From the IMG/VR virus record IMGVR_UViG_3300021371_000073, positions 1 to 30,382 of that record: a DNA stretch of 30,382 bases. One strand, 5' to 3'. The stretch is from a virus. Positions 5,805 through 24,611 of this stretch are shown in pieces. Positions within the stretch are counted from its first letter, which is position 1; each line of letters opens with the position of its first letter. The translations under genes were made by a program, and so were the position numbers. Below the pieces are notes generated by a model, which saw only the letters and a list, made by a program, of their open reading frames with translations, was not told where the DNA came from and searched no databases.

Positions 5805-6644
5805 ATGACTAAACAACAACAAACTGAACACAATATGTTAATGGACTTTATCGAACACGATTGTAAAGTCAACATTAATGAAAAAATAGATTATCCACCA
5901 GTAGCATTAAGTTATGGTGAAAAACTTTTAAAATCTGAAAGTGGTGATAAATTAGTACCTATTGCTTTAGGAACTTACGGAAACTTATCCGTAGTTACTG
6001 CACCACCAAAAACTATGAAAACATTTTTTATATCTTTATTAGCATCAGTTTATTTAAGTGGATCAAATATATACGGTGGTAACTTAAAAGGACATAAAGG
6101 TAATGGGCATCTTTTACACATAGATACAGAACAAGGTTTATGGCATTGTCAAAAGGTATTTAAAAGACCATTAACAATGGATTCAAGTATAAATACAAAT
6201 AACTACCATACATTTGGTTTAAGGTCAATAGACCACAAAATGCGAATAGATTTTATAGATTACTATTTAGAAAACAAAATAGATAAACCAAGTTTAATAA
6301 TAATAGATGGTATTGCTGATTTATGTAGTGATGCAAATGCAATAGTAGAATCAAATGCTTTAGTACAAAAATTAATGGAGTGGAGTGCTAAATACAAATG
6401 TCATATTATAAATGTAATACACCAAAACTATGGCAGTCAAAAATTAGGTACTGGGCATTTAGGAAGTTTTCTTGAAAAAAAAGCAGAAACAGTTATAGCA
6501 TTAGAAGCGAATACAGTAAATAAAGATTGGGTAACTGTTAAGTGTGGTAGGTCAAGGGGTTATTCTTTTGATACTTTTTCGTTTGAAGTTAACGATGTAG
6601 GCTTACCACAAATAGTAAATAATATTTATGATCCTTTAGCGTAA
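5805..6644 (+). CDS. RecA-like (RepA/AAA_25-type) replication ATPase
   Basis: A 279-residue protein. SVVTAPPKTMKTFF carries a degenerate Walker A (PPKTMKT, about 67-73), HLLHIDTEQG follows near 103-111, and the Walker B is SLIIIDGIADL (about 163-173). Next come a Gln/His sensor region IINVIHQN and GTGHLGSFLEKKAETVI. This is the layout of the RepA/DnaB-like RecA-fold ATPases (AAA_25), used by plasmids and phages as replicative helicases or helicase loaders. It is the only helicase-like protein in the genome, so it probably drives replication with SSB and the DnaA-like protein at 9286. The stop overlaps the next ATG by one base. Confidence 0.8.
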   Translation: MTKQQQTEHNMLMDFIEHDCKVNINEKIDYPPVALSYGEKLLKSESGDKLVPIALGTYGNLSVVTAPPKTMKTFFISLLASVYLSGSNIYGGNLKGHKGNGHLLHIDTEQGLWHCQKVFKRPLTMDSSINTNNYHTFGLRSIDHKMRIDFIDYYLENKIDKPSLIIIDGIADLCSDANAIVESNALVQKLMEWSAKYKCHIINVIHQNYGSQKLGTGHLGSFLEKKAETVIALEANTVNKDWVTVKCGRSRGYSFDTFSFEVNDVGLPQIVNNIYDPLA

Positions 6645-7123
6645 TGGTAGAAAAAACAATGATTCTTATTGCACAAAAGCACAAAACCTGGATAGAGATA
6701 GTTACCAGCTTTGGTTGCCCAAAAGAAACATCAGAAGATATAGTACAAGAAATGTATATTAAGATAAATAAAAAACTAAATAAAGGTTTAGATATTATGT
6801 ACAAGGATGAAGTTAATTACTACTATATATTTAAAACATTAAGAACATTATTTTACGATTTAAAACGCAAAGAAAAAAACATTACTATTATTAATATTGA
6901 AGATGTAGATATTGATAAATCTATTTCAGATATAGATTATGATAAGGCATACGCAATAATAAAAAAGGAATTAGATAATATGTTTTGGTATGATAGAAAA
7001 GTATTTGAAATAATTAATAGTGGTGAAAGCATAGCTGAATTTAGTAGAAAATCATACATACAATATTATTCATTGTATAATACCTACAACAAAGTAAAAG
7101 ATAAACTAAAAAAATTATTATGA
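6644..7123 (+). CDS. Phage sigma-70/ECF-like factor
   Basis: A 159-residue protein with the two-domain layout of a small sigma factor. A region-2-like helix SEDIVQEMYIKINKKL (30-45; compare AEDLVQEVFLKLW of ECF sigmas) is followed by YYYIFKTLRTLFYDLKRKEK (59-78). An acidic linker leads to a region-4-like helix-turn-helix at about 112-158 (VFEIINSGESIAEFSRKSYI, then SLYNTYNKVKDKLKKLL). Such proteins occur in Bacteroidota phages. It could redirect host RNA polymerase, and the five CGTTATATA elements before late operons are an obvious candidate target. The ATG overlaps the preceding stop. Confidence 0.72.
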   Translation: MVEKTMILIAQKHKTWIEIVTSFGCPKETSEDIVQEMYIKINKKLNKGLDIMYKDEVNYYYIFKTLRTLFYDLKRKEKNITIINIEDVDIDKSISDIDYDKAYAIIKKELDNMFWYDRKVFEIINSGESIAEFSRKSYIQYYSLYNTYNKVKDKLKKLL

Positions 7124-11769: not shown

Positions 11770-11778
11770 CGTTATATA
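11770..11778 (+). promoter_or_regulatory. CGTTATATA element 1, before the terminase operon
   Basis: CGTTATATA one base before a possible TTG start (11780) and 25 bases before the ATG at 11804. One of five identical nonamers placed before the first gene of each late unit. An A/T-rich tract (atttaata) precedes it, as at the other sites. Confidence 0.6.
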
Positions 11779-11779
11779 A

Positions 11780-12070
11780 TTGAATAAACAAAATACTTTC
11801 AATATGGATAAAAGAAAAAACAACGGAGGTGCAAGGGAGGGTGCTGGTAGACCAAAGAAAGCTGATGAACTAAAACTAATTGAAAAATTAGATAATCTAA
11901 TTGATAATGATGAGGTAATTAAAACATTAGGCAAACAAATCTTTAAAGGTGATTCACGTGCTATGTCATTATACTTTGGTTACAGATATGGTAAACCAAA
12001 AGAAACAGTTGATATAAATTCAAGCGAGGGTTTTAATATAAACTTTAAAGACATTATAAGGTTTAAGTGA
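11780..12070 (+). CDS. terS: Probable terminase small subunit
   Basis: Up to 96 residues from a TTG at 11780, or 88 from the ATG at 11804 (MDKRKNNGGAREGAGRPKKA). GGAREGAGRP is the basic N-terminal motif found in many small terminase and DNA-binding phage proteins. The rest is helical (LIEKLDNLIDNDEVIKTLGK). I favour the ATG at 11804: if CGTTATATA is a promoter it would then have a leader of about 20 bases, although the TTG cannot be excluded. Its TGA overlaps the GTG of the large terminase. It would recognise the packaging site on phage DNA. Confidence 0.72.
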   Translation: MNKQNTFNMDKRKNNGGAREGAGRPKKADELKLIEKLDNLIDNDEVIKTLGKQIFKGDSRAMSLYFGYRYGKPKETVDINSSEGFNINFKDIIRFK

Positions 12071-13275
12071 TAGATGTAAACCCAAAGTACGAACCAATAA
12101 AAACATCAGATGCAAGATATTTTATTGTAACTGGTGGTAGAGGTTCTGGTAAGTCTTATTCAATTAACCTATTGCTTTTGCTTTTAACATTTGAAGCTGG
12201 GCATATAATTCTATTTACAAGGTTTACTTTATCATCTGCATACATATCTATCATACCAGAATTTATAGACAAAATAGAAACACTTGAATTACAAGACTAT
12301 TTTTATATAACTAAAAACGAAATAATAAATAAGCTATCTGGAAGTAAGATAATATTTAAAGGTATCAAAACATCAAGTGGTGATCAAACTGCAAATCTAA
12401 AATCACTTACTAATATATCTACTTGGGTAATGGATGAAGCAGAAGAACTTACAGATGAAAACATTTTTGATAAAATAGACTTATCAGTTAGAAACCTAAA
12501 AAACAAAAATAGGGTTATACTTATATTAAACCCAGTTACAAAAGAACATTGGATATACAACAGATTTTTCCAGGATAAAGGAGTACAAGCTGGTAGTAAC
12601 ATCACAAAAGGCAATACAACGTACATACACACTACTTATTTAGATAATGAAGAAAACCTATCAAAAAGTTATTTAGAGCAAATAGAGAACATTAAAATAC
12701 GCAGACCAAATAAATACAAACATCAAATGCTTGGTGGTTGGTTAGAAAAAGCAGAGGGTGTAATATTTACTAATTGGTCAATAGGTGAATTTAAAAAAGT
12801 AGGTGTTTCAGTCTTTGGACAAGATTACGGTTTTGCAAACGATGAAAATACTTTAGTAGAAACTAACATAGATACTACAAACAAAATAATCTATTTAAAG
12901 GAATGTTTTTACTTAAAAGCACTTACTACATCACAAATAGCTGAACTGAACTTAAAACACGCTGGAAACAATTTAATAGTTGGTGATAGTGCTGAACCAA
13001 GATTAATATATGAAATAAAAGCAAAGGGTTGTAATGTTGTTGCATCAATTAAAGGTGCTGGATCAATAACCTATGGAATATCTTTATTACAAGATTATGA
13101 TTTAGTGATAGAAGAAAATAGTATTAACTTAATAAAAGAACTAAACAACTATTCTTGGTTAGAGAAAAAGTCTAAAACACCACAAGATAAATTTAACCAT
13201 ATTATAGATGCAATTAGGTATTCTGTTTCATATCAATTACAAAACCCTAATAGGGGAACTTATTATGTTTCTTAA
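12067..13275 (+). CDS. terL: Terminase large subunit
   Basis: A 402-residue packaging motor. The ATPase domain has Walker A TGGRGSGKS (about 24-32) and Walker B TWVMDEAEEL (about 117-126), then ILILNPVTKEHWIYNRFF, the coupling region of PBSX/Terminase_3-type enzymes. The C-terminal nuclease domain shows FGQDYGFAND (Asp), IVGDSAEPR (Asp) and HIIDAIRYSV (Asp), the acidic residues of the RNase H-like fold. Starts at GTG (12067), overlapping the previous TGA; there is no early in-frame ATG. It cuts the concatemer and pumps DNA into proheads. Confidence 0.93.
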   Translation: MIDVNPKYEPIKTSDARYFIVTGGRGSGKSYSINLLLLLLTFEAGHIILFTRFTLSSAYISIIPEFIDKIETLELQDYFYITKNEIINKLSGSKIIFKGIKTSSGDQTANLKSLTNISTWVMDEAEELTDENIFDKIDLSVRNLKNKNRVILILNPVTKEHWIYNRFFQDKGVQAGSNITKGNTTYIHTTYLDNEENLSKSYLEQIENIKIRRPNKYKHQMLGGWLEKAEGVIFTNWSIGEFKKVGVSVFGQDYGFANDENTLVETNIDTTNKIIYLKECFYLKALTTSQIAELNLKHAGNNLIVGDSAEPRLIYEIKAKGCNVVASIKGAGSITYGISLLQDYDLVIEENSINLIKELNNYSWLEKKSKTPQDKFNHIIDAIRYSVSYQLQNPNRGTYYVS

Positions 13276-13287
13276 CAATTTTGTTAA
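13272..13287. promoter_or_regulatory. Palindrome at the terL 3' end, possible operator
   Basis: TTAACAA (13272-13278) and TTGTTAA (13281-13287) form a perfect 7-bp inverted repeat around TT. It covers the terL stop codon and a TTG that could be the -33 element of a weak promoter. Confidence 0.4.
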
Positions 13288-13310
13288 TTAAATAATATTT
13301 TATATATTGC
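13281..13310 (+). promoter_or_regulatory. Weak promoter-like sequence before three small genes
   Basis: TTG (13281-13283), then TATATATTGC (13301-13310) at roughly the right spacing. The -7 match to TAnnTTTG is imperfect. The small gene at 13315 would have a very short leader. Confidence 0.3.
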
Positions 13311-13314
13311 ACCT

Positions 13315-13470
13315 ATGAAAACAGAACTAACAGAAATACAAGACCAACTGAAAACTTATTTGTATTCTAATGATCAAGAACAAATTGATTGTGCTGAAGT
13401 ATATTTAAGAAACGTACATAGAAAATATGGAACGGTAGACATAGTACAAATTAAAAACATAACAAAATGA
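13315..13470 (+). CDS. Small hypothetical protein after terL
   Basis: A 51-residue ORF: MKTELTEIQDQLKTYLYSND, then QIDCAEVYLRNVHRKYGTVD. Two helices are likely. Its TGA overlaps the next ATG (ATGA), and the three ORFs at 13315-13720 form one coupled set closed by a terminator. The function is unknown. Confidence 0.6.
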   Translation: MKTELTEIQDQLKTYLYSNDQEQIDCAEVYLRNVHRKYGTVDIVQIKNITK

Positions 13471-13598
13471 AAACAGACAAACCAAGTAATGCTGAAAAAG
13501 CAGCAAAGATTTTTAAGAAGTTAACAAAGTATTTTTTAATATTTGCATTGTGCTACTTTGTAGGTAGAACACTTGCATCAGTACTTTTTGATATATGA
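13467..13598 (+). CDS. Small one-TM protein
   Basis: A 43-residue ORF with a basic N-terminal helix (NAEKAAKIFKKLTK) followed by one hydrophobic segment (YFLIFALCYFVGRTLASVLF). This predicts a single-pass membrane protein with a positive N-terminal face. It overlaps both neighbours by four bases. Its location in a packaging-tail interval is unusual for a holin; the role is unknown. Confidence 0.55.
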   Translation: MKTDKPSNAEKAAKIFKKLTKYFLIFALCYFVGRTLASVLFDI

Positions 13599-13720
13599 GT
13601 TGGGATGATTTTTTAAACCCACACGAACAAACCGAATATGAATGTAGCGAATGTGGTGCTGCAATGCAAACCGATAAAGGTGTGTGTTCGGGAACTTGTT
13701 TTGAAGCAAGTATGATTTAG
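13595..13720 (+). CDS. Zinc-ribbon miniprotein
   Basis: A 41-residue ORF: MSWDDFLNPHEQTEYECSEC, then GAAMQTDKGVCSGTCFEASM. CxxC (Cys17, Cys20) and CxxxC (Cys31, Cys35) are well placed for one zinc ion. It starts with an ATGA overlap on the preceding gene, and a terminator follows about 20 bases after its stop. Similar tiny ribbons are common in marine phages; a nucleic-acid or host-polymerase contact is plausible. Confidence 0.62.
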   Translation: MSWDDFLNPHEQTEYECSECGAAMQTDKGVCSGTCFEASMI

Positions 13721-13742
13721 TAGTTAGTTTTTTTTATGATAG

Positions 13743-13775
13743 GAAAGGGCAGTCAGAAATGGCTGCTTTTTTTTT
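13743..13775 (+). terminator. Rho-independent terminator between packaging and tail units
   Basis: GCAGTC (13749-13754) pairs with GGCTGC (13761-13766), with one G-U pair and an AGAAAT loop. The stem is extendable outward by AAAGG/TTTTT and is followed by nine T residues. TATCTTTA (13778-13785), a weak -7-like element, follows at once. Confidence 0.85.
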
Positions 13776-13810
13776 ATTATCTTTACTACTATAAAATAGT
13801 TAAATAAAAA

Positions 13811-13819
13811 CGTTATATA
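13811..13819 (+). promoter_or_regulatory. CGTTATATA element 2, before the tail operon
   Basis: CGTTATATA preceded by agttaaataaaaa and lying three bases before the ATG at 13823. It comes 36 bases after the terminator T-tract, so it is in the right place to open a new transcription unit. Confidence 0.65.
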
Positions 13820-13822
13820 GAT

Positions 13823-14473
13823 ATGAATATTAATATTGAAATACCAACAAAGTTATCTGATATTACTTTAGGGCAATACAAAAGGTTTCTAAATATCCAA
13901 AAGCAAACAGAAGAATCACATTTTTTAAATGCTAAAGCTATTGAAATATTTTGTGATGTAGAACTTAAAAACGTTATGCGTTTGAAGATGGCAGACTTTG
14001 ATAAAATTACAAATAGGATCAATTCATTGTTTGAGCAAAAACCAAAGCTAGTACAACGCTTTAAAATTGATAGTGTTGAATATGGCTTCCATCCACAATT
14101 AGATGAATTAACATTAGGTGAATATATTGATGTAGATACTTACATTGCAGATTGGGAAAATATGGAAAAGACAATGAACGTATTATACAGACCAATAGAA
14201 AACAAATTAAAAGATAGATATTCAATAAAAGAATACAATGTTGATACAAGTGATAATTTATTAGATATGCCAATGGATGCTGTATTGTCATCAATTTTTT
14301 TTTTGTGGAATTTAGGGATAGACTTATCAAAAACTATTCTGAACTATTCGGATCTGGGGGTGGAAACGAACTTAATTCATCAGCAAATTTTAGCAGAAAA
14401 TGGGGATGGTATCAGTCAATATACACACTCGCTAATGGGGATATTACAAGACTTGAAAATATCACCAAATTAG
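13823..14473 (+). CDS. Tail-assembly chaperone, upstream frame (gpG-like)
   Basis: A 216-residue protein: MNINIEIPTKLSDITLGQYK, then a helical body. First gene of the tail operon, directly upstream of tail genes and two kilobases ahead of the baseplate and tape-measure genes, the usual place for lambda G/T-like chaperones. A T10 tract at 14295-14304 (codons 158-161) is followed by a second ORF in the -1 frame that extends to 14562. The last 56 residues of this frame (LWNLGIDLSKT...) overlap that ORF. As in lambda G/GT, most ribosomes would make this short form and a minority the extended one. Confidence 0.7.
   Translation: MNINIEIPTKLSDITLGQYKRFLNIQKQTEESHFLNAKAIEIFCDVELKNVMRLKMADFDKITNRINSLFEQKPKLVQRFKIDSVEYGFHPQLDELTLGEYIDVDTYIADWENMEKTMNVLYRPIENKLKDRYSIKEYNVDTSDNLLDMPMDAVLSSIFFLWNLGIDLSKTILNYSDLGVETNLIHQQILAENGDGISQYTHSLMGILQDLKISPN
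14295..14304 (+). other. T10 slippery tract: likely -1 frameshift or polymerase-slippage site
   Basis: Ten consecutive T. In the 13823 frame the codons are att-ttt-ttt-ttg, so T-TTT-TTT (14296-14302) fits the X-XXY-YYZ rule for -1 tandem slippage. RNA polymerase stuttering on T10 would give the same result. A sequencing indel is the dull alternative. Confidence 0.6.
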
Positions 14474-14562
14474 AAGTGCATAAATGTTTTATGATGTTAT
14501 CATTTGTAAAGGAAAAAAACGAAATAGAATCAAAACAAATTAAAAGTAAATTCAAAAGATGA
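14302..14562 (+). CDS. Tail-assembly chaperone, -1 frame extension (gpT-like)
   Basis: An 86-codon ORF with no ATG, open from the T10 tract (reads FVEFRDRLIKNYSELF...). It contains KWGWYQSIYTLANGDITRLE and then ITKLEVHKCFMMLSFVKEKN, an aromatic and helical pattern that looks conserved. The competing frame reads the same DNA as NGDGISQYTHS. A -1 slip at 14296-14302 would fuse it to residue 160 of the upstream gene, giving about 246 residues. A GTG at 14305 could in principle be an independent start, but a fusion is more in keeping with siphovirus tail chaperones. It overlaps the next gene by four bases. Confidence 0.62.
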   Translation, partial: FVEFRDRLIKNYSELFGSGGGNELNSSANFSRKWGWYQSIYTLANGDITRLENITKLEVHKCFMMLSFVKEKNEIESKQIKSKFKR

Positions 14563-15026
14563 ATCAAGGTATAAGAGGTTTTTATCAATTAACAGAAACA
14601 ATAAAAGAACAACTACTTGCTGATACAAATATCAATACTGTTTCAACTGGTGATGTTTCAAATTTGAATTTAAACAAACAAGATATATTTCCTTTAGGTC
14701 ATTTAATAGTAAATAACGTAGTAGCAGAGGAACAAGTATTAAGATTTAACATTACAGTAATTGCTTGTGATATTGTAGACCAATCAAAAGAATTAACACT
14801 TGATAGATTTGTAGGCAACAACAATGAACAAGATATTTTAAACACGCAGTTAAGCGTATTAAACAAATTAATACAAAACTTACGTAAAGGAAATTTACAT
14901 AAAGATATGTACCAGTTAGAGGGTAACCCATCATTAGAACCTTTTTATGATAGGTTTGAAAATATGTTAGCTGGTTGGAGTTGTGGTATAGAAATATTAA
15001 TATACAATGATATAACTATCTGCTAA
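14559..15026 (+). CDS. Conserved tail/neck protein (tail terminator-like)
   Basis: A 155-residue protein: MNQGIRGFYQLTETIKEQLL, with FPLGHLIVNNV and VLRFNITVIACDIVDQSK. EPFYDRFENMLAGWSCGIEI forms a C-terminal beta sheet. Size, alpha/beta layout and place between the chaperones and an HK97 gp10-like protein fit a tail terminator or tail-completion protein. The family itself is not identified by a diagnostic motif. It shares overlapping stop/start bases with both neighbours. Confidence 0.62.
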   Translation: MNQGIRGFYQLTETIKEQLLADTNINTVSTGDVSNLNLNKQDIFPLGHLIVNNVVAEEQVLRFNITVIACDIVDQSKELTLDRFVGNNNEQDILNTQLSVLNKLIQNLRKGNLHKDMYQLEGNPSLEPFYDRFENMLAGWSCGIEILIYNDITIC

Positions 15027-15565
15027 TGGAATTAACTAACACACAAAAAGCATTAGAATCATTTTCTGATTATGTGATCCAGCAGTCAAGAACAAGACTA
15101 ACTAAAAAAAAGAGAAACTATACAAGAGAATTATATGATTCTTTAACGTATGATTTTGAAAAAGCAGATGATGGTTTTATTATTGATTTTAAAATGGAAG
15201 AATATGGAGAATACCAAGATAGAGGTGTAAAGGGTGTTAATAGTAATTACATAGAAAACAAAAACAGTCCATTTAGTTATAAGCCAAGTAGCAAGTTAAG
15301 AGGGTTAGAATATCATACTGGTATATTTTCAAAGTGGGCAAAAGCTAAATTAAATAAAATACCAAGAAGCAAAAAAACTGGTAGGTTTATAACTTACAAG
15401 TCTATGGGTTATATATTAGCTGATAGTATAAAGAAAAAAGGAATTAAGGCAACTATGTTTTTTACCAAATCATTTGAAATGGGTTTTGAAAGGTTACCAC
15501 AAGAATTGCAAGAAGCATTTATTATAGATGTAGAATATGCAATAACATTAGCACAAAAGAAATAA
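15026..15565 (+). CDS. HK97 gp10-like neck/tail-completion protein
   Basis: A 179-residue basic protein. MEEYGEYQDRGVKGVNSNYI, followed by a basic loop and then SIKKKGIKATMFFTKSFEMG, matches the general form of HK97 gp10-type head-tail connector proteins: a 'Y-x2-Y-x-D-x-G' loop, then 'G-(I/T)-K-A-x2-F' near the C-terminus. It would sit at the neck, joining head and tail. It starts on the last base of the preceding stop and lies three bases upstream of the next gene. Confidence 0.65.
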   Translation: MELTNTQKALESFSDYVIQQSRTRLTKKKRNYTRELYDSLTYDFEKADDGFIIDFKMEEYGEYQDRGVKGVNSNYIENKNSPFSYKPSSKLRGLEYHTGIFSKWAKAKLNKIPRSKKTGRFITYKSMGYILADSIKKKGIKATMFFTKSFEMGFERLPQELQEAFIIDVEYAITLAQKK

Positions 15566-15568
15566 GAT

Positions 15569-16582
15569 ATGGCAATAATAGCTTTACGCAGTCCACAATT
15601 TAGATTCAAACAAATACCATTAAGTGGTGTAGCTTCAACACAATGTGTAATAACTATTGATGGTACAGTTAGATATACACTAATAAAAAACGTACAAAAA
15701 AGCACAACTGTAAATTTTGATATATCGGAACTTGCAAGAGATTATTTAGATATAACTTATGATGCAACCTATGTACCACAAACAATAGCTATAACTACAA
15801 CATTAACTAATTATAGTGGTGTAGATGGTACGGGTTCTGTTGTTGGATTAGCAACTACTTTTACTGATACTGGTGTTGAGGGTTACGGATATTTTGAAGA
15901 AAATACAAATCCCGAAGTACCCATTAATATATTTTTAATTTCTAAAAACCCAGATACAAACGAAGTACAATTATATTATCCAAAAGGTTTAACGGGTGTT
16001 ACAAATTATGGGGGTATAATACCATATACAGCTTTTTCTGGTGGTGGTGTTGTATCTATAAGCACAAAAGCATTTGTAAACGGTACAACTTCATTAAATA
16101 TTCCCTACAATGCAACTATAAAAAGAATAGAATGTACTAAATATGGAGATGGTAGAAAAATAATATTTATAAATAGATATGGTGTTCAGCAAGATTTATG
16201 GTTTTTCTTAAAAGAAACAAAAACACTTGCAAGACAAAACGAGGGTTACAAAGCTAATATATTAACATATCCAAGTACAAATAACCCAGCTACATATTCT
16301 ATTTCTGATGCACCTAACAAAACATTTAACACAACTGCTAAACAAACATTTATTTTAAGTAGTGGTTACTATCCACAAGGTGCTAATAATTTCTTTGAAG
16401 AACTTTTATTAAGTGAGTATGTATGGTATGAGCGAATAAATAAAGTTAGTGGTGCTGATGAAGTTATACCAGTAAAAGTAAAAAAATCATCTATACAATT
16501 TAAAACATCTGTTAATGATAGGTTAATTGAATACACTATTGATTTTGAAGAAGCATTTGATTATATAAATAATATTAGATAA
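15569..16582 (+). CDS. Tail/baseplate structural protein
   Basis: A 337-residue, beta-rich, Thr/Asn-rich protein (MAIIALRSPQFRFKQIPLSG...). It contains NFDISELARDYLDITYDATY near residue 50 and a central Gly-rich segment (FSGGGVVSIS). GDGRKIIFINRYGVQQDLWF looks like a conserved core. It is one base from the 715-residue tail protein, with which it is probably translated and assembled. A distal-tail or baseplate role is inferred from position and composition; the family is not identified. Confidence 0.6.
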   Translation: MAIIALRSPQFRFKQIPLSGVASTQCVITIDGTVRYTLIKNVQKSTTVNFDISELARDYLDITYDATYVPQTIAITTTLTNYSGVDGTGSVVGLATTFTDTGVEGYGYFEENTNPEVPINIFLISKNPDTNEVQLYYPKGLTGVTNYGGIIPYTAFSGGGVVSISTKAFVNGTTSLNIPYNATIKRIECTKYGDGRKIIFINRYGVQQDLWFFLKETKTLARQNEGYKANILTYPSTNNPATYSISDAPNKTFNTTAKQTFILSSGYYPQGANNFFEELLLSEYVWYERINKVSGADEVIPVKVKKSSIQFKTSVNDRLIEYTIDFEEAFDYINNIR

Positions 16583-18729
16583 TGCAACAAAAATTAGTAT
16601 TATATATAGCAAGTGTTTTACCTAATAATAGGGTAGATCAATTCAAAGATGAAAATGTTTCTTTTACTCAAACAATACAAAACGTAAAAGACTTAAAAAA
16701 AATCTTTACTGAATTTACTAAAACTTTTGCATTACCAGCTTCAAAAAAAAACAATAAAATATTTGATCATTATTATAACTATGATATTGCAGGAGGTTTT
16801 GATGCAAGAACAAAAGTAGATGCTTTTTTAGAATTAAACGATATACCATTTAAAAAAGGTAAAATAGCTTTAACTGGAGTTGATTTAAAAAACAATGTAC
16901 CACACACATACAAGGTAACTTTTTATGGGAACACCGTTAATTTAAAAGATATTTTAGGTGATGACCAATTAAGTAATTTGTCTGCATTAAGTATATTAGA
17001 TACTGATTATAATAATAGTACTGTTTTAGCAGCTATGCAAAATGAATATTTAGGTAATTTAATTGTACCTTTAATTACACATACTGATAGAGCATTTTAT
17101 GATAGTAACCCAAATGCAGCATCAAATGGTAATTTGTATTATAATAGTAATTCTTTATTTGATGATAATGGGCTTGAATTTACACAATTTAAATATGCTA
17201 TAAGATTACAAGCTATTATATCAGCAATACAAACACAATACCCAAGTATTACATTTTCTGATGATTTTTTTAATGATACATCAAATACAGATTTTTATAA
17301 TTTGTATATGTGGTTACATCGTAAAAAAGGAGATGTAGAACCAACTGAACAAGTACAAAGGGTTTATAATACAACATCAACTTTTGCACAAACAGCTGCA
17401 TTAAATCAAAGAAATTCTATTATACAATCAGGTTCTTTAAGGTTACAATTAAACTATCCACAAGAATCACCAAATCAAAATAATTCTTTTCAATCAGTAG
17501 TTTTATTATTTGCACCCACACAACAATCAACTGATTATAGTGTTAGGGTTTTTAATGTAGCAGCAGGGAATCAAGAAGTAGGGGGGTTTATTGACCAACA
17601 AGGTAACCAAACAATAGATTTTGATAATGATTTAGATAATATGGGCTTGTATGTTGTGCAAATAGCTTGTGCAACAACTATTGTATTTCCAGCAAATAGT
17701 ATAGAATGGTATGTCCAATCAAGAGAGTTTACATTTAACCCTACTGCAATAGAAACATCGGTATATCGTTATAAAAATTCAGTTGCATTTAGCACCAGTT
17801 TAACTATAGAGTTTAATATATTAGAACAAATACCTAAAATGAAAATTATAGATTTTCTAACTGGTATATTTCAAATGTTTAATTTAACTGCATACGTAGA
17901 AAATGATATTATTGTAGTACAACCTTTAGATGAATTTTATGATAAAGCACCAACTAATTCAACCACAAATCAAGTAATACCAGTTAATATTGATCAGTAT
18001 TTAGATACTACAAAATCATCAGTAGATATTGCATTACCTTTTTCAAAAGTTAATTTTACTTACAAAGGTGTTAAGACATTTTTAGCACAACAATTTAATC
18101 AGTTAAACAATAGGGTTTGGGGTTCAAGCAGCTATTCATTAAATGGTGATATTTATGATACACCAAGTACTGAATATAAAATAGAAATACCATTTGAACA
18201 CGCAATGTTTGAGAGATTAGTAAATCAAACTGAGGGTACTAATACTGATATTCAATATGGTTATTTTGTGGATGATAACCAAGAACCTTATATAGGTGAT
18301 CCATTAATATTTTATAGATATAGAATAGCAAGTGGTACTAATGTTGCAATTAGAGATTTAGCAGGAAATATAACACCAATTAATAATTACTATATCCCTA
18401 TGAATAGTAAAGATATTAATTCAAATACAAGCAAAGTAAATATACATTTTGATAGCTATATTAATGAATACAATGCAAATGATAGTGCTAATGCTACTGC
18501 TTTTACTGATACTTTATTTCAAACACAATATAGCAATTATATAAACGAGGTGTTTAGTCCAACAAGAAGATTAACAAAAGTAACTGCATACCTACCATAT
18601 AAAATATTTAGTAGCTTACAATTATATGATGTTATAGAAATAGGACAAAAATATTACAAAATTAATTCAATGACTACAAACCTAACAACTGGTAAAACAG
18701 AATTTGAATTATTAAATACTGATTTATGA
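16582..18729 (+). CDS. Large tail protein, probable baseplate hub / tail-associated protein
   Basis: A 715-residue protein. The N-terminal domain (about 1-140) has NVKDLKKIFTEFTKTFALPA, then HYYNYDIAGGFDARTKVDAF and YKVTFYGNTVNLKDILGDDQ. This arrangement recurs in large tail proteins of Bacteroidota phages. The middle is beta-rich, and a hub-like segment IDFLTGIFQMFNLTAYVEND (about 420-440) resembles the gp27/hub 'L-x2-I-x2-x-F-N-L' theme. The C-terminus ends in a beta fold (VIEIGQKYYKINSMT). It is probably the central baseplate or tail-tip protein. Genes on both sides overlap it. Confidence 0.62.
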   Translation: MQQKLVLYIASVLPNNRVDQFKDENVSFTQTIQNVKDLKKIFTEFTKTFALPASKKNNKIFDHYYNYDIAGGFDARTKVDAFLELNDIPFKKGKIALTGVDLKNNVPHTYKVTFYGNTVNLKDILGDDQLSNLSALSILDTDYNNSTVLAAMQNEYLGNLIVPLITHTDRAFYDSNPNAASNGNLYYNSNSLFDDNGLEFTQFKYAIRLQAIISAIQTQYPSITFSDDFFNDTSNTDFYNLYMWLHRKKGDVEPTEQVQRVYNTTSTFAQTAALNQRNSIIQSGSLRLQLNYPQESPNQNNSFQSVVLLFAPTQQSTDYSVRVFNVAAGNQEVGGFIDQQGNQTIDFDNDLDNMGLYVVQIACATTIVFPANSIEWYVQSREFTFNPTAIETSVYRYKNSVAFSTSLTIEFNILEQIPKMKIIDFLTGIFQMFNLTAYVENDIIVVQPLDEFYDKAPTNSTTNQVIPVNIDQYLDTTKSSVDIALPFSKVNFTYKGVKTFLAQQFNQLNNRVWGSSSYSLNGDIYDTPSTEYKIEIPFEHAMFERLVNQTEGTNTDIQYGYFVDDNQEPYIGDPLIFYRYRIASGTNVAIRDLAGNITPINNYYIPMNSKDINSNTSKVNIHFDSYINEYNANDSANATAFTDTLFQTQYSNYINEVFSPTRRLTKVTAYLPYKIFSSLQLYDVIEIGQKYYKINSMTTNLTTGKTEFELLNTDL

Positions 18730-18875
18730 TAAAAAACATATTAGACTTATTACAAGAGGTAAAAGGTGAAACGGAAAACATACAAATTGCACAAGGTAAA
18801 TATGCTTTACCTACATCAGTAAAAAACAGTTATAAATTAATAAAACAAGTATGGGCAAAGAAAAATACGAAGTAG
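18726..18875 (+). CDS. Small protein overlapping the tape-measure start
   Basis: A 49-residue ORF, MIKNILDLLQEVKGETENIQ, then KYALPTSVKNSYKLIKQVWA. It starts with an ATGA overlap on the large tail protein and runs 25 bases into the tape-measure gene in another frame. Its amphipathic helices could pair with the tape measure or its chaperones. The coupling on both sides supports it being translated. Confidence 0.5.
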   Translation: MIKNILDLLQEVKGETENIQIAQGKYALPTSVKNSYKLIKQVWAKKNTK

Positions 18876-20602
18876 AATTAGCAGCAAATACAAAAGAAGC
18901 AGAAAAAAATGTTGATGCCTTAAATAAAAAAGTCAAAGATACTGGTAAAACTGCACGAAAAACTGGTAAAGAAATATCTGCTGCTATGCAAATAGGTAAT
19001 GAAGCAGCAAGAGGTTTAGATAGATATACTGGTGGTTTAGCATCTAAACTACTAAAAGTAGGTAAAGCAGCAAAGTTAAGTGGTAAGGCTATGAAAACTG
19101 CTTTAATATCAACTGGTATTGGTGCTTTAGTTGTTGCTTTAGGTTTAGTTGTTCAGTATTGGGATGACATAGTTGGTTTAGTTGATGGTGTTAGTAGTGA
19201 ACAAAAAGATTTATTAGAAACTACACAAAAAACTTTAGATGTACAAGAGCAGCAATTAAAGTCAACTGGTCAAATGGAAAACACTTTAAAGTTACAAGGC
19301 AAAAGTGAAAAAGAAATAAGAGATTTAAAAAAGCAACAAACCGATGAAATAATTACATCTACTGAATTATTATTAGAACAACAAAAATCACAGAAAAAAG
19401 CACAAGTAGAAGCAGCAGAACGAAACCAAAAAATAACACAAGGTATAATAGCATTTTTGACTGCACCCTTAACTATTTTACTTGGTACAATAGATGGAAT
19501 CACAAATAGTTTAGCAAGTTTAGGTATTATAGATGAAGCTACAACACTAACAGAAGATTACCTTAATTTTACATCATCTTTATTATTTGATCCCGAATCT
19601 GTAGCTGAAGCAGGGGATGAAACTATTAACGAAACAGAAAACAAGTTAAGACAATTAAAAAACAAAAGGGATGGTTTTGCTTTACAAGACAAAGAAGATG
19701 CAAAGAAAACTGCACAAGAAAAAGCACAAGATGAAATAGATGCAGAAAAAGCAAAAGCAGCAGCACTTGAAAGTATTAGAAAAGCATTAATAGATACTGA
19801 AGCAGAAGAACGTGCAGAAAAGTTAAGAAAAATTAAAGAAGATTTTGATAAGCAAATTGCATTAGCTGAAGAATATTACGGTAAGGAAAGTGAACAAGTT
19901 TTAGCATTAAGAGCAGCACAAAAATCAGCATTAGATACACAAGAAGCAGAATTTAAAGAACAAGATGCAGCAAAAGCACAAGCTGATTTAGATTATTGGG
20001 CAAATGAAAGTGATAAACGATTAAAGAAATTACAAGAAGAAAAAGAAGAAGAAGCAAGAATAGAAAAAGAAGCTGCTGAATATAAAGAAAAAGAATTTAG
20101 GGATACATATAATAATTTACAAAATGTATTAAGTGTTGGTGGTAAAAAAATGCAAAAGGTAAGTAAGGCATTAGCTATTGCAGATGTAGCAAGAACATCT
20201 TTTAAATCTATTTCAGAAACTATTTCAGAAACTGGAAAAGCAAACGCTGCTGCTACTGCTGCAAGTCCATTAACGGGGGGTATGCCTTTTGTTGCTATTA
20301 ATACTGCAAAAGCTGCATTATCTATTGGTTCTACTTTAGCAAGTGCTAAAAAAAGTATTTCAGCAATAACTGCTGATTCTAAAAACCCAAGTGGTCAAAG
20401 ACCAGCACCAAGTGGTGGGGGTGGTGGTGCTGCAAGTATACCACCAGCTTTTAATATAGTAGGTGCAAGTGGTACAAATCAATTAGCAGATGCAATAGGT
20501 GGTCAAACACAACAACCAACAAAAGCATACGTAGTTGCAAGTGATGTTTCTACTGCACAAGAAATGGACAGAAACATTATTGAGGGTGCAAGTATAGGAT
20601 AA
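18851..20602 (+). CDS. Tail tape-measure protein
   Basis: A 583-residue protein: long charged helices (KYEVELAANTKEAEKNVDAL), then a hydrophobic hairpin (ALISTGIGALVVALGLVVQY, about 94-115) and a second hydrophobic stretch near residue 200. A coiled coil rich in Ala, Glu and Lys spans about 280-430. An Ala/Ser-rich C-terminus carries a Gly/Pro segment (SGGGGGAASIPPA). This is the profile of a siphovirus tape measure, which sets tail length; at about 0.15 nm per residue it predicts a tail near 85-90 nm. It is the last gene before CGTTATATA element 3. Confidence 0.85.
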   Translation: MGKEKYEVELAANTKEAEKNVDALNKKVKDTGKTARKTGKEISAAMQIGNEAARGLDRYTGGLASKLLKVGKAAKLSGKAMKTALISTGIGALVVALGLVVQYWDDIVGLVDGVSSEQKDLLETTQKTLDVQEQQLKSTGQMENTLKLQGKSEKEIRDLKKQQTDEIITSTELLLEQQKSQKKAQVEAAERNQKITQGIIAFLTAPLTILLGTIDGITNSLASLGIIDEATTLTEDYLNFTSSLLFDPESVAEAGDETINETENKLRQLKNKRDGFALQDKEDAKKTAQEKAQDEIDAEKAKAAALESIRKALIDTEAEERAEKLRKIKEDFDKQIALAEEYYGKESEQVLALRAAQKSALDTQEAEFKEQDAAKAQADLDYWANESDKRLKKLQEEKEEEARIEKEAAEYKEKEFRDTYNNLQNVLSVGGKKMQKVSKALAIADVARTSFKSISETISETGKANAAATAASPLTGGMPFVAINTAKAALSIGSTLASAKKSISAITADSKNPSGQRPAPSGGGGGAASIPPAFNIVGASGTNQLADAIGGQTQQPTKAYVVASDVSTAQEMDRNIIEGASIG

Positions 20603-20633
20603 ACGCAAAATTTAAAATTAAAAACGTTATATA
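20601..20633 (+). promoter_or_regulatory. Bipartite element 3: AAACGC-N18-CGTTATATA, before the protease operon
   Basis: AAACGC at 20601-20606, 18 bases, then CGTTATATA at 20625-20633, three bases before the protease ATG. The same two blocks with the same spacing occur at 22293-22325, so both halves may be read together like a -35/-10 pair. Confidence 0.65.
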
Positions 20634-20636
20634 ATT

Positions 20637-21245
20637 ATGAAAATAATAGAACTTATTTTAGATGAGGAACAAGAAGAAGCAGGAGTAGAAGCTATTTCTA
20701 TTGTAGAAAGTCCAGCTATTGAATCAGACTTTATTGCTTTAAAAGACCAAGAAATAAAATTGGCAAAAGTAGATGGTGATAAAAAAATCTTAATGGGTGC
20801 TTTATTAATACCTAATAAGCCTATATACAGAAATGGTGCAGAGGGTGAATATTACATTTACTTTTCTAAAGATACAGTACAAAAAGCATCACAAATGTAT
20901 TTAAAGAATGGCTATCAAAACAATAGTACATTAGAACACGCTGAAACTTTAAGTGGTTTAACACTTGTTGAAAGTTGGTTGGTAGAAGATGAAGTACAAG
21001 ACAAATCAAGAAAATACGGAATTAATGTACCAGTAGGTACTTGGATGGGTGCAGTAAAAGTTAATAACGATGAAATATGGCAAGAGTATGTTAAAACAAA
21101 TAAAGTTAAAGGTTTTTCTATTGAAGGTTACTTTGCAGACAAAATGGAAGCACCTAAAGACAAGATTAAAGAAGAATATTCAAAAGATAAAAGTGCTGAA
21201 AAGACATTAAATAAAATCATAAATATATTGACCAATGAAAAATAA
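20637..21245 (+). CDS. Prohead protease (XkdF / S78-like)
   Basis: A 202-residue protein. AISIVESPAIESDFIAL (19-35) opens the domain, KILMGALLIPNKPIYR (50-65) and YYIYFSKDTVQKASQMYL follow. The catalytic pair is probably His101 (STLEHAETL) and Ser161 (VKGFSIEGYF). This is the order of the XkdF-like serine protease family, the maturation protease of HK97-type proheads. It is placed upstream of the scaffold and capsid genes, as expected. The C-terminal Lys/Glu helix may be removed on maturation. Confidence 0.82.
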   Translation: MKIIELILDEEQEEAGVEAISIVESPAIESDFIALKDQEIKLAKVDGDKKILMGALLIPNKPIYRNGAEGEYYIYFSKDTVQKASQMYLKNGYQNNSTLEHAETLSGLTLVESWLVEDEVQDKSRKYGINVPVGTWMGAVKVNNDEIWQEYVKTNKVKGFSIEGYFADKMEAPKDKIKEEYSKDKSAEKTLNKIINILTNEK

Positions 21246-21654
21246 CATAGAAAAGGTTTACGGAAAACTACCAAAGAAAAAATTAGGTTTAAAAAAGCAT
21301 AAAATTGATTTATCACTTGTTGATGATATTTATAAAGCAACAGAAGCATCAACGGATACATTAGAAAGTATTGATACTTTGGTAACGTATGCAAATAGAA
21401 TAACAGAAGATTATAGACTTATTAAAGAACGGATAGATCTTGTATTACCAGAATTAGATGGACAATTAAATGAAGCTAATGATATATTTGAAAAAAGTGC
21501 AACTATATTATCAAAAGCACAAAATTCAGCAGAAGAATTAGGAATATCAATAAATAATATTGATGGATATAATGAATTAGAACAAACACTAAATGTATTA
21601 GCAAGATATATTGATAGTGTTATAAGTTCTAAAAGAGATATAGACAACATATAA
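21235..21654 (+). CDS. Helical protein, paralogue A of a tandem pair
   Basis: A 139-residue protein beginning MKNNIEKVYGKLPKKKLGLK and continuing as long helices with coiled-coil character. Its N-terminal 25 residues follow M-K-x3-EKVY-x-K-x-P-x-KK-x2-LK-x-HK, the same pattern as the next gene, so the two are tandem paralogues. It overlaps the protease by 11 bases. Position between protease and scaffold suggests an internal head, scaffold-accessory or assembly role. No known family was assigned. Confidence 0.65.
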   Translation: MKNNIEKVYGKLPKKKLGLKKHKIDLSLVDDIYKATEASTDTLESIDTLVTYANRITEDYRLIKERIDLVLPELDGQLNEANDIFEKSATILSKAQNSAEELGISINNIDGYNELEQTLNVLARYIDSVISSKRDIDNI

Positions 21655-21666
21655 ATTAATAAAAAA

Positions 21667-22131
21667 ATGAAAAGTAGATTAGAAAAAGTATATGATAAAA
21701 TGCCTAATAAAAAGGTAGATTTAAAAGCACATAAAGTAGCTTTAGGTTTAAAGCAAGAAATAACAAGTTTAATTGATAAGGCTTATTATCACGCAGAAGC
21801 AATGTATGATATGTCTTTAGAGAGCAATAACGCATACGAAAAAATAAGAGATGCATTAAATACATATAATAGTTTGTTAGAAGATTATAATATTGCTATT
21901 GAAAGTTTTTCATTTAATCAAAAACAATTTTTAGATAGTTATGTAGAAATAGCACCAAGATTTGACAGATATTTAGATGCATCTAATGAATTAGGGGTTG
22001 ATGTAGAACCATCTATGCAAAAAGATATGGAAGAATTAGATAAATATTTTACTCTTAGTAATAATTCAGATACTACATTATTAAAAGATTTAAAATTTAG
22101 AGAAATAGATGAATTTGGAAATTTTAGATAA
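21667..22131 (+). CDS. Helical protein, paralogue B of a tandem pair
   Basis: A 154-residue protein beginning MKSRLEKVYDKMPNKKVDLK. It shares the N-terminal motif with the 21235 gene but diverges afterwards (helical middle, then acidic tail LDKYFTLSNNSD). The shared N-terminus could bind a common partner such as scaffold, protease or capsid, with the differing bodies doing different jobs. The next ATG overlaps its stop by one base. Confidence 0.65.
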   Translation: MKSRLEKVYDKMPNKKVDLKAHKVALGLKQEITSLIDKAYYHAEAMYDMSLESNNAYEKIRDALNTYNSLLEDYNIAIESFSFNQKQFLDSYVEIAPRFDRYLDASNELGVDVEPSMQKDMEELDKYFTLSNNSDTTLLKDLKFREIDEFGNFR

Positions 22132-22292
22132 TGCCAAGAAACAACAAAAATAAAACCTTTATACCAAGTAGAACATCACCTACTGGATCATCACGTGCTT
22201 GTTTATGTTGGGATACCAATACATATTCTATTGATTGTTGTGATGGTTCTATACACGCACAAGGCATAGGTGTAATAACAAGAACAGACTGA
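22131..22292 (+). CDS. Cys-rich miniprotein (CLC...CCDGS motif)
   Basis: A 53-residue ORF: MPRNNKNKTFIPSRTSPTGS, then SRACLCWDTNTYSIDCCDGS and IHAQGIGVITRTD. The core ACLCxDxxxYSxxCCDGSxxAQGIG is, from memory, a recurrent miniprotein motif near capsid genes of Bacteroidota phages. The four Cys could bind zinc or form disulfides in the virion. It starts on the last base of the preceding stop and ends immediately before element 4. Confidence 0.65.
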   Translation: MPRNNKNKTFIPSRTSPTGSSRACLCWDTNTYSIDCCDGSIHAQGIGVITRTD

Positions 22293-22325
22293 AAACGCAA
22301 AAAATAAATTAAAAATCGTTATATA
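22293..22325 (+). promoter_or_regulatory. Bipartite element 4: AAACGC-N18-CGTTATATA, before scaffold/capsid
   Basis: AAACGC at 22293-22298 and CGTTATATA at 22317-22325, six bases before the ATG at 22332. The alignment with element 3 is ungapped, and 10 bases at the left block are identical (aaacgcaaaa). Confidence 0.65.
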
Positions 22326-22331
22326 AGTATT

Positions 22332-22937
22332 ATGAAAGCAACCAAAATGTTAAATGACATAAAAACGCTTCTAAACATCGAGGTAAAACTTGAAGAAATG
22401 AAGCTGGAAAATGGTACGGTTATTACAACTGAATCATTAGAAAAAGGAAACGAAGTATTTATCGTTACCGATGATGAAAAAGTAGCAATGCCAGTAGGGG
22501 AATATATCCTTGATGATGGTAGGCTATTGATCGTAGAAGAAGAAGGTATTATTGCAGATGTAAGGGATGTATCTGATGGTGTACCTGCTAAAGAAGAAGA
22601 AACTACTGAAGATTTAGAAGAAGAAACTATTGAAACGGAAGTACCCGAAGAAGTAGCATCAGAAGTTGAAGCAATAGTTGAAGCAGTAGTTGAGGTTATT
22701 GCACCAGTTATTGAGGAAGTAAAATCTGAAATTGAAGAACTTAAAAAACAATACGCTTCTTTAATGGATGACAAAGAAGAAGAAAAAGTAGAAGATAAGA
22801 AAAAAGAAGATTTATCTGCAGCAAGAAAACCAATTACAAGAAATTCAGCACCAAAATCTAACAAAACTAAAGTAGAGTTTGGAAGTGGAAAATTCGCAAC
22901 AACATTAGATAGAGTATTAAATAAATTAAATAAATAA
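22332..22937 (+). CDS. Probable scaffold protein
   Basis: A 201-residue, extremely acidic, Glu-rich protein. The N-terminal part (1-80) is a small beta domain (MKLENGTVITTESLEKGNEV, then VGEYILDDGRLLIVEEEGII). A long Glu/Val helix follows (about 95-160, with EVKSEIEELKKQYASLM), and a basic C-terminus (KPITRNSAPKSNKTK, ending TTLDRVLNKLNK). An acidic helical body with a basic C-terminal tail is typical of phage scaffolds. It is immediately upstream of the major capsid gene and downstream of the protease that would degrade it. Confidence 0.72.
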   Translation: MKATKMLNDIKTLLNIEVKLEEMKLENGTVITTESLEKGNEVFIVTDDEKVAMPVGEYILDDGRLLIVEEEGIIADVRDVSDGVPAKEEETTEDLEEETIETEVPEEVASEVEAIVEAVVEVIAPVIEEVKSEIEELKKQYASLMDDKEEEKVEDKKKEDLSAARKPITRNSAPKSNKTKVEFGSGKFATTLDRVLNKLNK

Positions 22938-22944
22938 AATAAAA

Positions 22945-23925
22945 ATGGCAAATTTAAGAAAAACAAATCTTGCAACTACTGTAAATATCACTACAACTTA
23001 CGCTGGTGAATTTGCTGGTGAGTATATTGCAGCAGCTTTACTATCTGCATCAACTATTGATGATGGTGGTTTAACGGTAAAAGCAAATATTGCTTACAAA
23101 GAAGTATTAAAGAAATTAGCAACAAGTGCAGTAGTAAGTGCAGCAAGTTGTGATTTTACACCTACATCAACTGTAACACTAACTGAAAGAATTATACAAC
23201 CAGTAGAATTACAAGTGAACCTACAGTTATGTAAGTATGACTTTGTGAACGATTGGGAAGCACAACAAATGGGTTACGGTTTAGGTCAAACATTACCACC
23301 TAAATTCGCAGATTTTATGATTGCACACGTAGCAGCAGAAGTTGCCCAGAATACAGAATTTTGTATTTGGCAAGGTGATACTGCAGCAGGTACTAACAAT
23401 TCATTTGATGGGTTTGAAAAACTAATTGCAGCTTCAGCAGCAGCAGGTGATATACCAGCAGGTCAGCAAGTAGCAGCAGTAGGTGGTGGATTAAGTGCAA
23501 CAAACATTATTGCTGAAATGTCTAAAGTAGTAGATGCTATTCCAGCAGCACTTTATGGAAAAGAAGATTTATTCCTATACATAGGATCAGCAGCAGCTAA
23601 ATTTTACGTACAAGCATTAGGAGGTTTCGCAGCAGCAGGTCTTGGTGCAAATGGTGTAAACAATATGGGAACACAATGGTGGAACAACGGGAGTTTAACA
23701 GTAAATGGAGTTAAGATTTTTGTATGTCCAGGAATGAGTGCAAACAAAATGTATGCAGCACAACGTTCTAACTTATACTTTGGAACGGGATTGTTAAACG
23801 ATACAAATTCTATTAAAGTATTGGATATGGCTGATTTAGATGCTTCAAACAACGTTAGAATGGTAATGCGTTTTACATCAGCAGTACAATTTGGAATTGC
23901 ATCTGATTTAGTAGAATACGCTTAA
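22945..23925 (+). CDS. Major capsid protein (HK97-fold)
   Basis: A 326-residue Ala-rich protein. The N-terminal arm MANLRKTNLATTVNITTTYA is followed by helical and beta segments. VELQVNLQLCKYDFVNDWEA and AEVAQNTEFCIWQGDTAAGT, the spine helix/P-domain region, lie in the middle, and VNGVKIFVCPGMSANKMYAA near the end resembles the A-domain of HK97-like capsids. It lies directly after the scaffold and is closed by a strong terminator, as expected for the most abundant protein. It has no Cys-rich or enzyme motif. The capsid assignment rests on context plus this overall pattern. Confidence 0.82.
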   Translation: MANLRKTNLATTVNITTTYAGEFAGEYIAAALLSASTIDDGGLTVKANIAYKEVLKKLATSAVVSAASCDFTPTSTVTLTERIIQPVELQVNLQLCKYDFVNDWEAQQMGYGLGQTLPPKFADFMIAHVAAEVAQNTEFCIWQGDTAAGTNNSFDGFEKLIAASAAAGDIPAGQQVAAVGGGLSATNIIAEMSKVVDAIPAALYGKEDLFLYIGSAAAKFYVQALGGFAAAGLGANGVNNMGTQWWNNGSLTVNGVKIFVCPGMSANKMYAAQRSNLYFGTGLLNDTNSIKVLDMADLDASNNVRMVMRFTSAVQFGIASDLVEYA

Positions 23926-23946
23926 AATTAATTAACCAATAAATTA

Positions 23947-23980
23947 GGGTAGGTAGGTCATCTACTTGCCCTTTTTTTTT
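23947..23980 (+). terminator. Strong terminator after the major capsid gene
   Basis: GGGTAGGTAG (23947-23956) pairs with CTACTTGCCC (23962-23971) over ten bases, with two G-U pairs and a 5-base loop. Nine T residues follow. Confidence 0.87.
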
Positions 23981-23995
23981 AAAAAAAATATATAT

Positions 23996-24517
23996 ATGTC
24001 TTGTTTATTAACAACTGGAAGAAAAATACCTTGCAAATCAGCGTTTGGTGGTATTAAAAGAGTATATTTTGCTGATTACGGTGGTATAACTGCAGTAACA
24101 GTAGATAGTACAACTAAAGAAGCTACATTAACTGGTAGCCCAACGTGGTTTGAATTTGATGTAAAAGGTAATTCATCTTTAGAAACTACTGTAACAAGTA
24201 GTAGAGAAAATGGAACTACATTTTATACTCAAACTTTAAACTTAACGCTAACTTATTTAGATGCAAAAACACAAGCAGAACTACAAACACTTGCTGTAGC
24301 AAGACCATATATTGTAGTTGAAGATTATTACGGTAATAGCTTCTTGTGTGGGTTTGAAAATGGAATGGAATGTACGGGTGGTACGGTAGTAACTGGTGCA
24401 GCAGCTGGTGATTTAAGTGGTTTCACACTTACCTTTGAGGGTATGGAGGAAACTGCACCTTACTTTTTAGATGCAGCAGTAACACCAGATGCAACACAAA
24501 TTGATCCAACTGCATAG
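23996..24517 (+). CDS. Probable major tail tube protein
   Basis: A 173-residue protein: MSCLLTTGRKIPCKSAFGGI, then IKRVYFADYGGITAVTVDST. A beta-rich body follows (TWFEFDVKGNSSLETTVTSS, then LNLTLTYLDAKTQAELQTLA). It is beta-sandwich-like with a closing ...LTFEGMEETAPYFL, a pattern common in tail tube proteins. I chose the ATG at 23996; an upstream in-frame TTG lies inside the terminator T-tract. It stands alone between two terminators (23947-23980 and 24541-24568), so it has its own promoter or relies on read-through, and would be abundant. Confidence 0.65.
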   Translation: MSCLLTTGRKIPCKSAFGGIKRVYFADYGGITAVTVDSTTKEATLTGSPTWFEFDVKGNSSLETTVTSSRENGTTFYTQTLNLTLTYLDAKTQAELQTLAVARPYIVVEDYYGNSFLCGFENGMECTGGTVVTGAAAGDLSGFTLTFEGMEETAPYFLDAAVTPDATQIDPTA

Positions 24518-24540
24518 TTTTAATTTTAGTTAATAAATTA

Positions 24541-24568
24541 AGCATCCTTTATAGGGTGCTTTTTTTTT
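24541..24568 (+). terminator. Terminator after the tail tube gene
   Basis: AGCATCC (24541-24547) pairs with GGGTGCT (24554-24560), with one G-U pair and a 6-base loop. Eight T residues follow. Confidence 0.85.
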
Positions 24569-24602
24569 ACAATATAATTTCTACAAATTAGTTAATTAAT
24601 TA

Positions 24603-24611
24603 CGTTATATA
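24603..24611 (+). promoter_or_regulatory. CGTTATATA element 5, before the portal operon
   Basis: CGTTATATA four bases before the ATG at 24616, 35 bases after a terminator, preceded by agttaattaatta. It is the fifth copy of the nonamer. Confidence 0.65.

Follow-up and report, generated by a model that had tools for sequence, protein, structure and literature searches.

The genome of a marine flavobacterial phage, one of a large marine group, was found to carry five copies of the nonamer CGTTATATA, each being one half of a conserved two-part signal that has a fixed spacing, stands before a late operon and is coupled among related phages to the gene for a sigma-like protein. In our judgement the probability is about 0.86 that CGTTATATA serves as the −10 element in a late promoter of the phage, opened by host core polymerase together with the sigma factor encoded at 6644-7123 and giving nearly leaderless mRNAs in four of the operons. 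In the proposed mechanism, the early genes, including the sigma gene, would be expressed first, and host core RNA polymerase would then take up the small phage sigma factor of extracytoplasmic function (ECF) type (6644-7123). Its sigma4 domain would read an AAA box at about −30 to −28, and its sigma2 domain would read CGTT (G−11, T−10 and T−9, if a conserved purine is +1). The five sites would then switch on the terminase, tail, head-protease, scaffold/capsid and portal operons, of which the terminase operon would retain a 22-nt leader and the other four would start 0-3 bases before their start codons.

The analysed stretch, hereafter the window, is a virus record of 30,382 bases. Its ends (1-155 and 30228-30382) overlap by 155 bases with one mismatch; the window is therefore probably a complete genome, and the overlap suggests a circular or terminally redundant molecule of about 30.2 kb. 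Confirmed relatives in IMG/VR number 549 by capsid and at least 599 by terminase. The features discussed below are collected in Table 1.

Table 1. Predicted elements of the five putative late promoters, neighbouring terminators and the candidate reader, in window coordinates.
Feature	Position	Strand	Remarks
Late promoter 1, −35-like box ACTAAA	11749..11754	+	inside 3' end of methyltransferase gene; 29.7 bits
Late promoter 1, −10 nonamer	11770..11778	+	terminase small subunit operon
Late promoter 1, predicted start	11782	+	leader of about 22 nt to ATG 11804
Late promoter 2, −35-like box TATAAA	13790..13795	+	fixed geometry, matrix
Late promoter 2, −10 nonamer	13811..13819	+	tail operon; 30.9 bits
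Late promoter 2, predicted start	13823	+	A of ATG; leader 0 nt
Late promoter 3, −35-like box CGCAAA	20604..20609	+	fixed geometry, matrix
Late promoter 3, −10 nonamer	20625..20633	+	head protease; 30.9 bits
Late promoter 3, predicted start	20637	+	A of ATG; leader 0 nt
Late promoter 4, −35-like box CGCAAA	22296..22301	+	fixed geometry, matrix
Late promoter 4, −10 nonamer	22317..22325	+	scaffold, major capsid; 26.3 bits
Late promoter 4, predicted start	22329	+	3-nt leader
Late promoter 5, −35-like box TACAAA	24582..24587	+	fixed geometry, matrix
Late promoter 5, −10 nonamer	24603..24611	+	24616 gene, portal; 33.1 bits
Late promoter 5, predicted start	24615	+	1-nt leader
Intrinsic terminator ahead of late promoter 2	13741..13774	+
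Intrinsic terminator ahead of late promoter 5	24540..24561	+
Candidate reader, phage ECF-type sigma factor	6644..7123	+	159 aa

The two-part signal and its conservation

The nonamer CGTTATATA occurs six times in the window, always on the + strand, which is far above chance (0.29 expected; six copies reached in 0 of 100 shuffles). The conservation is exact, since a search permitting one mismatch returned no excess (17 matches against 13.1 expected). The sixth copy, at 9063, lies inside an exonuclease ORF, has no upstream box and was set aside as a chance coding match. The remaining five, whose positions in the initial annotation (11770, 13811, 20625, 22317 and 24603) are all exact, each stand 5' of the first gene in a late block, as had been proposed; the identities of the terminase, protease, portal and tape-measure genes are backed by PHROG matches. 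Terminators were likewise recovered ahead of the two copies said to follow one. Within the A/T tract described upstream of the copies lies a second element at a fixed position, [CT]AAA, with exactly 15 bases between it and CGTTATATA.

CGTTATATA is the downstream half of a predicted two-part promoter, in which exactly 15 A/T-rich bases separate it from [CT]AAA and two bases, a T and a purine follow it; with CGTTATATA as the −10 element, its full form would be (T)(A)[CT]AAA-N15-CGTTATATA-NN-T-R(+1). Counted from the C of CGTTATATA, AAA occupies positions −18 to −16 in 98% of 63 non-redundant sites, preceded by C or T and followed by an A/T-rich stretch up to CGTTATATA, and the boxes are conserved in 98-100% of sites. 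When a start codon at the right distance was required, a spacer of 15 gave 296 exact sites, and spacers of 11-14 and 16-19 gave 0-5 each. The signal thus shows the stringent −35 and −10 boxes and the rigid spacer of ECF promoters. Two loci that appeared to hold the motif without AAA (L100 and L107) were discarded, because both matches lie inside the sigma ORF and are chance coding matches; the only box-less CGTTATATA sites among the related loci are those inside the sigma gene.

A weight matrix built solely from the contigs of other phages and then run on the window picked out exactly five sites, each at the start of a late operon, with scores of 26-33 bits. The next score on the + strand was 4.4 and the best on the − strand was 7.0; 30 simulated genomes yielded scores of up to 13. 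Internal late genes carry no two-part signal. The five sites are also unlike host-type promoters, as had been stated, TAnnTTTG being absent at all of them. In the window as a whole this host-type motif is not above chance (17 on the + strand against 22 expected; 6 against 3.9 expected when combined with a −33 TTG). The early genes of such phages are likely transcribed from the flavobacterial housekeeping promoter TTG-N-TAnnTTTG, which the five late sites do not match.

Across 160 related loci (1.36 Mb), CGTTATATA occurs 363 times on the gene strand and 2 times on the opposite strand, and it is the most over-represented of the frequent 9-mers there. Some contigs have acquired a foreign terminase module, its TerL being about 30% identical, and in these the two-box signal was found directly before the new first gene (L171, L181, L206, L227, L229, L238, L246 and L252, and L177, where the signal contains CGTTATACA). 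The conservation footprint, the fixed two-box geometry and the matrix hits together support the phage-specific late promoter put forward in the initial annotation. Exact intergenic repeats can also be cos sites, pac sites or replication iterons, and the exactness of the CGTTATATA copies would suit a site with a part in DNA packaging, replication or recombination. Such a role in place of transcription is extremely unlikely, considering that the copies have a single orientation, always precede operon starts, share a fixed second box and are kept before foreign modules.

Some features of gene arrangement around these sites were also observed. The ORFs at 20637-21245 (head protease) and 22332-22937 (scaffold-like) match the N- and C-terminal parts, respectively, of one PHROG (24921) of 349 residues; gp01 of the cultured phage P12024S has 349 aa, and one promoter variant stands before it. 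The protease/scaffold protein appears to have been split here by inserted genes, with the second half having its own putative late promoter. Between protease and scaffold, at 21235-22131, lie two tandem small ORFs with the common N-terminal pattern EKVYxKxPxKKxxLKxHK, apparently a duplication. A strong terminator at 23946-23972 directly follows the major capsid gene and is not itself followed by a late promoter; it may lower the expression of the next gene relative to that of the capsid gene. The annotated TTG start of this next gene at 23966 overlaps the terminator; ATG 23996 is the more likely start.

Predicted transcription starts and leaders

Where would transcription begin? Of the 29 sites with an ATG 4-8 nt away, 26 have a T at −1 and a purine at +1, as do 17 of the 26 sites with a distant ATG, and the +1 position is inferred from this conservation. 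If that purine is +1, GTT lies at −11 to −9 and the AAA box spans −30 to −28. In Mycobacterium tuberculosis sigma H promoters, GTT has been reported at −11 to −9 (PMC6411747).

Two start codons needed revision. TTG 11780, assigned as the start of the terminase small subunit, proved wrong: the conserved start is ATG 11804 (MDKRKNNGG), as indicated by the relative L081, in which an in-frame stop separates the TTG from the MDKRKNNGG start. Behind the copy at 24603, it is ATG 24616, and not TTG 24613, that is conserved as the start. The proposal of nearly leaderless mRNAs therefore fails for the terminase operon, and geometry favours it in the other four of the five operons. In these four, the predicted start lies 0-3 bases before the start codon, so that the mRNAs would be leaderless or nearly so.

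The initial annotation had offered a translational start element as its second reading. Under this explanation the motif would act in translation initiation, or as an mRNA 5' element, on a transcript from a promoter further upstream; it draws on the position of CGTTATATA 3-7 nt ahead of an ATG before most operons and on the lack of Shine-Dalgarno sequences in hosts of this phylum (PMC6847099). Before the terminase small subunit, in contrast, the same motif keeps its sequence and its upstream box with the ATG 24-36 nt away. A signal kept at this distance from the start codon, and kept before a foreign terminase module, points to a promoter rather than a translation signal. A co-conserved AAA box at one fixed spacing would also be unexpected for a ribosome site, and internal late genes lack the motif, the matrix giving exactly five sites. 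The translational reading is thus very improbable.

With CGTTATATA taken as part of a promoter, the predicted late mRNAs would be unusual for the host, given that leaders in Flavobacterium johnsoniae exceed 10 nt in 87% of mRNAs (PMC6847099). Leaderless phage transcripts as such are already known (PMC5312081). We lean slightly towards the broader view that a widespread lineage of marine flavobacterial phages makes leaderless structural-gene mRNAs by means of a dedicated ECF-type sigma promoter placed on the start codon. If this is true, late proteins would be made by an initiation route other than that of the host, which could bias ribosomes to the phage.

The terminase leader (11782-11806) and its counterparts in relatives contain a recurrent inverted repeat, ATTGAA...TTCAAT, just 5' of the ATG; the version in the relative L290 is CTTGAA...TTCAAG. 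Because the repeat folds weakly, it may act either as an RNA hairpin or at the DNA level, as a site for the terminase small subunit.

The candidate sigma factor and its relatives

Structure prediction gives the protein encoded at 6644-7123 the fold of an ECF-type sigma factor. Its AlphaFold2 model, made from 53 sequences, has a mean pLDDT of 87.4 and a pTM of 0.49, the latter being low owing to uncertain domain placement. The model contains helices at residues 2-78 and 99-158 joined by a low-confidence linker; that is, sigma2 and sigma4 domains with a short linker, without sigma1.1 and sigma3, as is characteristic of the ECF class. In Foldseek, ECF sigma factors head the list of PDB matches (probability 1.00, best E 0.003). 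VIA-align ranks sigma H initiation complexes first (Z 10.9), and in both searches the top rows span residues 1-159. Fold similarity does not show promoter specificity.

At the sequence level the relationship is remote. The window protein alone has no Pfam match; against Sigma70_r2 (cut-off 24 bits), its relative from L152 scores 16.9 bits, and gp33 of P12024S passes with 25.2 bits. The window protein matches phrog_31712, of which gp33 is a member, and profile alignment of its family with gp33 gave a probability of 96%; solved ECF sigma factors were reached by its profile only at E 0.43. No match was obtained by tblastn with the window protein in the phage collection, and the link to cultured phages came by capsid, portal and terminase. 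Among 84,980 bacterial and archaeal genomes, the sigma profile found one contig only, L430 (3.5 kb, sigma relative 47%). This contig had been placed in a Campylobacterales MAG, so no host was assigned from it; given its length, it is probably phage DNA put in the wrong bin.

The signal and the sigma gene were found to occur together. Twelve long contigs were chosen by the DNA pattern alone and then checked for the sigma gene; 11 of them encode a sigma relative, two of these being very divergent (E about 1e-11 to 1e-12). The one lacking it, L391/G011 (100 kb), has a single pattern match with a G+C-containing spacer and was taken as a chance match. Contigs encoding more distant sigma relatives carry CGTTATACT or CGTTATAAT at the tail operon, and such variants are perhaps the reason why the strict motif is missing from some contigs with a sigma gene and long downstream sequence, for example L231, L242, L249 and L293. 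Common descent accounts in part for sigma and motif being linked among related phages. A contig of 89,305 bases (L280) encodes the sigma factor and holds five copies of the promoter-like signal between 71 and 85 kb; it is perhaps a larger phage, or a product of assembly or integration.

In annotated phages, the sole related capsid and portal genes are those of the Nonlabens phages P12024S/L (27-37% identity). These phages have a divergent sigma factor (23% identical) and a variant promoter-like signal, CGTTAATATA. The pattern AAA-N13/15-CGTTANTA-N4-ATG was observed at five of their late gene starts (0-0.02 expected), and CGTTA lies exactly 7 nt ahead of the ATG at six late starts, those of gp01, gp05, gp08, gp41, gp44 and gp45. 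In P12024S, the predicted transcription start is the A of the ATG in all six. In RAP44, Harreka_1 and BS-TP2, which are related by TerL, neither the sigma factor nor the signal was found.

The predicted fold and the co-occurrence of motif and sigma gene support the 6644-7123 protein as the candidate reader, as had been suggested. Co-occurrence does not prove contact, and the same gene cluster encodes a protein with a DnaA-type helix-turn-helix (9253-9864). The late promoter might accordingly be read by another phage factor, such as this DnaA-C-like protein activating the host holoenzyme, or the host polymerase might have been altered so as to read it. We regard this as unlikely, because the signal, with its two boxes at a fixed spacing, is built like a sigma promoter, the sites contain no host-type TAnnTTTG, an ECF-like sigma factor is encoded in 11 of 12 motif-chosen contigs, and a homologue accompanies the variant motif in P12024S. 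The DnaA-C-like protein was also compared as a possible sigma relative, with a negative result.

Comparison with known systems and significance

The closest known case by function is the arrangement of phiEco32 gp36 and phage 7-11, although without detectable homology. There, a small phage sigma factor, annotated as ECF in phage SU10, brings the host polymerase to a small number of middle and late operon promoters that are almost the same in sequence, and the five sites of the window form a set of this kind. The reported motifs, tAATGTATAtA (PMC4281155) and, for phage 7-11, tgtgatgttata (PMC4331800), have a GT(T)ATA core in common with CGTTATATA, which shares GTTATA with tgtgatgttata. By hhalign, neither the window sigma factor (probability 1.5%) nor that of P12024 (0.9%) showed homology to phiEco32 gp36. 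Unlike in phiEco32, a fixed AAA box lies 15 bp upstream, the start codon is at or next to the predicted +1, and the host, as inferred from relatives, belongs to Bacteroidota.

Bacterial ECF promoters, such as those of M. tuberculosis sigma H and Escherichia coli sigma E, likewise consist of two short stringent boxes at rigid spacing. The likeness extends to the predicted ECF fold of the candidate reader and, if +1 is as predicted, to GTT at −11 to −9 (PMC6411747). The differences are a −35 box of YAAA instead of the usual GGAAC, a −10 element extended to CGTTATATA, and a regulator that is a phage gene. Many, though not all, members of the ECF family are controlled by an anti-sigma factor. In phage T4, too, the late genes are preceded by a strict −10 element rich in A and T, which is served by a phage protein resembling a sigma factor. 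The T4 late promoter TATAAATA, read by gp55, has no −35 box and requires the sliding clamp; the −35-like box distinguishes the present signal. In the literature searched, coverage of which was incomplete, no report of this flavophage promoter or of sigma-driven flavophage promoters was found.

The analysis provides a predicted regulon, comprising sigma factor, promoter and start points, for abundant uncultured marine flavophages, and the cultured Nonlabens phages P12024S/L allow this prediction to be tested directly. Late operons in metagenomic contigs would become predictable from DNA alone, and Bacteroidota would gain a candidate for an orthogonal pair of promoter and sigma factor. Finally, leaderless translation in a phylum that does not use Shine-Dalgarno sequences becomes testable on highly expressed genes.
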